NCBI GenBank assembly: GCA_029866025.1
Contig: JARXAD010000012.1
Location: 62,001 to 126,000 of the forward strand
Direction of reading: 5' to 3'
Length of the DNA stretch: 64,000 nt
From: Vampirovibrionales bacterium
GTDB taxonomy: Bacteria; Cyanobacteriota; Vampirovibrionia; Vampirovibrionales; Vampirovibrionaceae
The translations under genes were made by a program, and so were the position numbers. The notes beneath the pieces are model-generated. The model was given only the letters and a program-made list of their open reading frames with translations, was not told the DNA's origin and searched no databases. This document shows, one piece after another, positions 22,440 to 22,693 of this stretch (the stretch's first letter is position 1; each line of letters starts with the position of its first letter).

Positions 22440-22693
22440 ATGAACATTCGTTTTGCCAGCGCCCAACCCTTTACCCGCCAAGCCAGTTCGGTTCGGTTCG
22501 GTTCGGACAAACACACGCACTGAAGAACTTGCAAGAGCAAGTTGTGCAGCCTGCCATTCATGCCCTCAATGCCGGTTTAACAACCACCCAGCTAAAAGAG
22601 GAAGGCTTCGATATTGGCTCAGAAGCGCTTAAGAAGGCCCTTAAGACTGACGACCCAATTAAGGCGCTACAAGATCTAGTCACTCAGAAATAG
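22440..22693 (+). pseudogene. Small SVRFG-tagged gene, out of frame by one TTCGG unit; possible phase-OFF allele (82 aa if restored)
   Basis: GGAG RBS + ATG; as read MNIRFASAQPFTRQASSVRFGSDKHTH*; deleting one TTCGG gives ...SSVRFGQTHALKNLQEQVVQPAIHALNAG...DLVTQK*. Confidence 0.75.
22487..22506 (+). repeat. Pentanucleotide microsatellite (TTCGG)x4
   Basis: Read directly: TTCGGTTCGGTTCGGTTCGG. Confidence 0.97.

Follow-up and report, generated by a model that had tools for sequence, protein, structure and literature searches.

In some pathogens, surface genes are switched on and off by a simple repeat placed behind the start codon, and slippage-driven phase variation of this kind is known mostly from host-adapted pathogens. 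In the opa genes of Neisseria, a (CTCTT)n array lies within the stretch coding for the signal peptide. Opa tracts of five units or fewer undergo 0.007 changes per month of carriage, versus 0.16 for those of nine or more (PMC7157529). Published cut-offs place phase-variable tracts at nine or more G/C, or at five or more tetra- or pentamer units (PMC5953494), while those used for Campylobacter are seven or more G/C and five or more longer units (PMC6321876). For the lineage studied here, literature searches that combined phase variation with Vampirovibrionales or Gastranaerophilales found no paper.

We have analyzed a window of 64,000 nucleotides from a Vampirovibrionales bacterium (contig JARXAD010000012.1, positions 62,001 to 126,000), in which a small gene at 22440-22693 carries the pentanucleotide array (TTCGG)x4. 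With a probability of roughly 60%, we read this locus as a real small orphan gene with one repeat unit too many, which would belong to a contingency-locus-like set and act as a slow switch. Because its four units (22487-22506) stay below the pentamer cut-off of five or more, the locus is phase-variation-like and not an established phase-variable gene.

Reading frames around the TTCGG array

The ATG at 22440 has a GGAG 8 nt upstream and opens a frame of 27 residues on the plus strand (22440-22523; MNIRFASAQPFTRQASSVRFGSDKHTH*), in which the tag MNIRFASAQPFTRQASSVRFG... is followed by an early stop at 22523. The frame 3' of the array stays open until 22693 and forms the body of the gene (22505-22693, plus strand), out of frame with the ATG. 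According to codon statistics trained on long genes of this genome, the 62 codons beginning at 22505 outscore 99.9% of wrong-frame windows, 4.5% of which are free of stops over that length, and fall in the 38th percentile of real genes. The first 15 codons of the ATG frame outscore 99.96% of wrong-frame windows, while the body frame, extended by 15 codons 5' of the array, lies at the 0.7th percentile of genes and is non-coding-like. Since the ATG frame is coding before the array and the other frame after it, the coding signal of the assembled sequence switches frame exactly at the array, and this is one gene read in two frames. The original prediction of an array that shifts the frame of a tagged gene is borne out, and the proposed offset of one repeat unit is supported. 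The array lies inside the coding sequence, with an RBS-supported start before it and a coding body after it; its unit is not a multiple of three, and the number of units alters the reading frame of that body. The gene also carries an RFG-type tag, defined as [hydrophobic or S/T/P/A]-[RKH]-F-G among the N-terminal 45 residues.

According to a pattern search, TTCGG arrays of at least three units occur only twice in the whole 2,189,344-base assembly (22487-22506 and 31768-31782), and dinucleotide shuffles of the window give 0.01 expected matches to TTCGGx3. As predicted, the second array, (TTCGG)x3, is in frame with the tagged gene at 31745 (31745-32050, plus strand). This gene had also been taken for the intact paralogue of the 22440 gene, which we reject: BLASTP aligns eight residues only, seven of them shared, covering SVRFGQ and nothing more, and each of the two is a singleton among 5.77 billion proteins.

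As 5 and 3 are coprime, every frame of (TTCGG)n encodes FGSVR cyclically, and at four units each of the three contains VRFG. VRFG is therefore kept whatever the frame, so that slippage would remove the body and leave the tag, the part that had been thought to be switched. From the codon usage of the genome, SVRFG spelled as TCG-GTT-CGG-TTC is expected in 4.8e-4 of cases, and a pattern search found the other tags to be mostly spelled TTT GGN. The idea that the codons of the tag are themselves a slippage-prone repeat thus holds at this locus, but TTCGG is an unusual spelling and not the usual choice. Likewise SVRFGQ, described as canonical, is present, but as one form of a broader tag at the N-terminus, [x][RKH]FG.

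The window itself excepted, the body has no homologue in 58 relatives, in genome_contigs or among the 5.77 billion proteins, and a strain search by flank pattern returned one chance match, in Paraburkholderia. No homologue was found at the ribBA position in relatives, where the nearest of them (G001) instead carries another small open frame, which contains an FSA motif. Among 196 relatives we detected one further TTCGG array, a (TTCGG)x4 in G076 that lies outside any tagged gene. Around the locus, Rfam gave no RNA element, and the promoter and terminator scans gave nothing above chance. A neighboring tagged orphan at 22046-22303 (plus strand; MRLTFSAHHATRLAPRFGNN...) has no repeat. On the other side, the body ends 13 bases before the start of ribBA (window 22693-22707), at which a clear ribosome site is lacking; in the case of translational coupling between the two, ribBA could be translated less because of the early stop at 22523.

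Simple repeats behind start codons across the genome

We surveyed a 1.17-Mb sample of the genome, together with whole-genome pattern searches that included G9 runs. At least 18 genes with an RBS-supported start have a simple repeat between the start codon and the body, ten in frame and eight out of frame; the list was compiled by hand, with starts chosen by a simple ribosome-site score. Its members are mostly tagged orphans and their repeats, besides TTCGG, are poly-C/G of 9-13, (CTAC)15, (AGCC)7, (CCAGC)5 and (ATCCA)4. Given as contig and position, the in-frame cases are (CCAGC)5 at C8:3393, (TTCGG)3 at window 31768, (AGCC)7 at C2:109842, (ATCCA)4 at C13:105317, runs of C9 at C7:2524, C7:83069 and C9:320616, C12 at C13:450029, G12 at C13:97553 and G13 at C2:407757. 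Out of frame are (TTCGG)4 at window 22487, (CTAC)15 at C3:24969, runs of C9 at window 53451, C2:283644 and C4:65407, C10 at C4:39554, G11 at C9:383401 and C11 at C13:329098, where a weaker alternative ATG is in frame. Five more N-terminal repeat genes, with weaker support for the start, are all in frame.

The second out-of-frame member in the window lies on the minus strand, where a C9 run (53451-53459) directly behind the ATG (53469-53467) is followed by a frame-offset, tagged body of 117 residues (VQFGAIK..., 53097-53450) with no Pfam match. At C3:24969-25935 (L017:4969-5935), the 60 bp of (CTAC)15 lie behind an RBS-supported ATG, and the tagged, out-of-frame body of 301 residues is methyltransferase-like (PF13489, E 2e-6); this gene has no relative in 39 genomes. 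Another body of the set is weakly GNAT-like in Pfam, below the curated cut-off, and the remaining bodies scanned gave no significant family. Besides, a gyrB-like gene (L054:12706-15198) carries an in-frame C11 run close to its N-terminus; unless translation begins at a later start, slippage in this run would affect an essential gene. A dispersed AAAAGCCCC...GTGCTAG string, considered as an element, was discarded after only two paired copies were found in 1.15 Mb.

The placement of repeats behind starts is far above chance. Applying fixed criteria, stricter than those of the 18-gene list, to the G/C, tetra- and pentamer repeats of the sample, 10 out of 30 lay just behind the supported start of a coding body, compared with 194 of 6000 random positions (3.2%; P 2e-8). 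All ten had a tag-like motif, versus 34 of 6000 random positions (P 9e-16); here the motif was the looser [RKHQN]F[GSA], used in the same way for both groups. The sample contains seven G/C runs of at least 10, versus none in one order-3 Markov genome, and pentamers of at least four units were absent from six simulated genomes.

Regarding the tag, [VMLIPSTA][RKH]FG is found among the N-terminal 45 residues in 24 of the 838 called genes in 854 kb of the genome (2.9%), compared with 21 of 3882 internal windows (0.5%; P 6e-8), an enrichment of about 5-fold. Many of the proteins that bear it are small orphans, and Pfam gave nothing significant for the tagged orphans of the window; the tag might be an export or targeting signal. 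One 371-residue orphan of the window (16812-17927, minus strand) shows several tag-like motifs along its length (VRFSGQ, ARFSGLG, VRFGDE and MRFGNN). Among members of the same family, the tag is enriched in G005 (8/165 vs 1/619, P 2e-5) and, more weakly, in G001 (4/136 vs 4/633, P 0.04); it was found in none of 128 genes of G036, from another, more distant family.

No N-terminal repeat gene of this kind was found in 540 kb of G001 and 140 kb of G005, and targeted loci of G001 gave two in-frame cases (MIPPPPRFSG... and MQTPPPLKRHPNFG...). In three further genomes (G004, G006 and G031), prepilin-like genes and others have the runs after their start codon. In G004 (L252, L254-L256) and G006 (L257-L266), which belong to the window's own family, poly-C follows the start codon in prepilin-like genes (GFTLAELLISLAILGVIATF) and also in those of a second, unnamed family (MYPPPPE...), with mixed frame states. 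In G031, from another family of the class, G/C runs of 11-14 were present in 20 out of 20 fetched stretches (L201-L220, also L156-L159), and in most of them the run follows a supported ATG and precedes a prepilin-like body (FTMAEILLSLTIIGVVAAITLPSLTG). Nearly all of these runs are out of frame, only L203 and L213 being clearly in frame. The 372 overlapping G10 matches in the whole genome of G031 probably represent about a hundred tracts.

Proposed slippage and its alternatives at 22440-22693

In the mechanism that we propose, the tag codons of the 22440 gene form a pentanucleotide array in which replication slippage would have left the assembled allele one TTCGG unit over the coding frame. Translation from ATG 22440 would end after 27 residues with the body not made, and the gain or loss of a unit would shift the frame back and forth, VRFG being encoded in any frame. 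Genome-wide, the repeat genes look like contingency loci, of which a random subset would be expressed in each cell and altered by slippage. Judged from the sequence, the anatomy of the set is that of translational phase variation by slipped-strand mispairing and supports a switch for the class. As for the 22440 locus, (TTCGG)x4 is short and, given the opa rates for tracts of up to five versus at least nine units, switching would be slow or the loss recent; that the change is reversible, how fast it runs and what the tag and the body do are all inferred. The ON/OFF slippage put forward in the original prediction gains from at least 17 further N-terminal repeat genes, seven of them out of frame, but the four units at this locus remain under the cut-off of five.

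One could argue that a single recent slippage event inactivated the gene with no return, leaving a fixed pseudogene. With just four units, the array falls short of the cut-off normally used for switching (PMC5953494), and there are no homologues that would show the gene to be maintained. However, the body has no internal stop and its codon usage is typical, and seven other repeat genes have intact, out-of-frame bodies, a pattern better explained by switching than by decay in parallel. We consider a pseudogene unlikely. An assembly or sequencing error, by which the true genome would have three units and an intact gene, is possible but disfavoured, and we give it even less weight. Short tandem repeats and G/C runs are indeed error-prone, and contigs C1 and C4 end (L008:35-59, L020:1-15) in (CCAGC)n arrays of similar sequences, a sign that this class of repeats breaks the assembly. 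Against an error, the gain of a whole 5-bp unit is atypical for reads, and the same kind of offset is seen at (CTAC)15. It is disfavoured because the G/C runs of 9-10 found deep in long frames (C2:272731, C7:3443, C13:60003 and C13:139533) are all in frame, and so is the C11 run of the gyrB-like gene. Finally, it is very improbable that there is no frameshift at all, with the array neutral and the body made from GTG 22388, from TTG 22367 or through programmed frameshifting: the frame is uninterrupted from 22367 to 22693 and a 101-residue prediction from it is in the protein database, but the 15 codons before the array are non-coding-like in that frame (0.7th percentile) and coding-like in the ATG frame, inspection found no canonical X-XXY-YYZ heptamer at the junction, a family-like N-terminus comes from the ATG frame only, and the alternative start of the database entry is not supported.

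Beyond the reading of 22440-22693 as a gene set one unit out of frame by slippage, we are evenly divided on a broader one: a dedicated contingency set of around two dozen mostly unrelated proteins, most of them sharing a new RFG-type tag and each with a slippage-prone repeat, through which the display of tagged proteins would be random per cell. In two of them the repeat itself would encode the tag in all frames, and the prepilin-like genes of relatives in the class would share the layout.

Comparison with known phase-variable systems

Most sister tracts reach the published cut-offs, including (CTAC)15, (AGCC)7, (CCAGC)5 and the G/C tracts of at least 9 (PMC5953494, PMC6321876). If our reading is correct, a large set of repeat genes with an undescribed tag in a little-studied lineage would extend this strategy to other lifestyles. 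It would also offer a handle on the function of the tag, since the tagged genes are those under random control. The layout also explains why genes of this kind are missed or given wrong starts by gene callers; the database entries for the 22440 and (CTAC)15 loci both start so as to bypass the repeat.

The closest system is that of Neisseria opa. As in opa, a pentanucleotide array sits just behind the start, the number of units sets the frame, and several genes per genome are found in mixed states (PMC7157529). Unlike the opa arrays, which mostly have five or more units, the one at 22440 has four and encodes an RFG tag instead of a signal peptide. The bodies are unrelated orphans, whereas opa is one adhesin family. 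The gene at C3:24969, with (CTAC)15 behind its start and a methyltransferase-like body, is similar to the tetranucleotide mod-like genes of Haemophilus influenzae (De Bolle et al., cited in PMC11868660); it differs from them in the RFG tag before the body, which is methyltransferase-like by its PF13489 match. Finally, the poly-G/C phasome of Campylobacter also comprises many genes with coding G/C runs of about 9-13 (PMC6321876), but the runs described here cluster immediately behind the start of tagged orphans.
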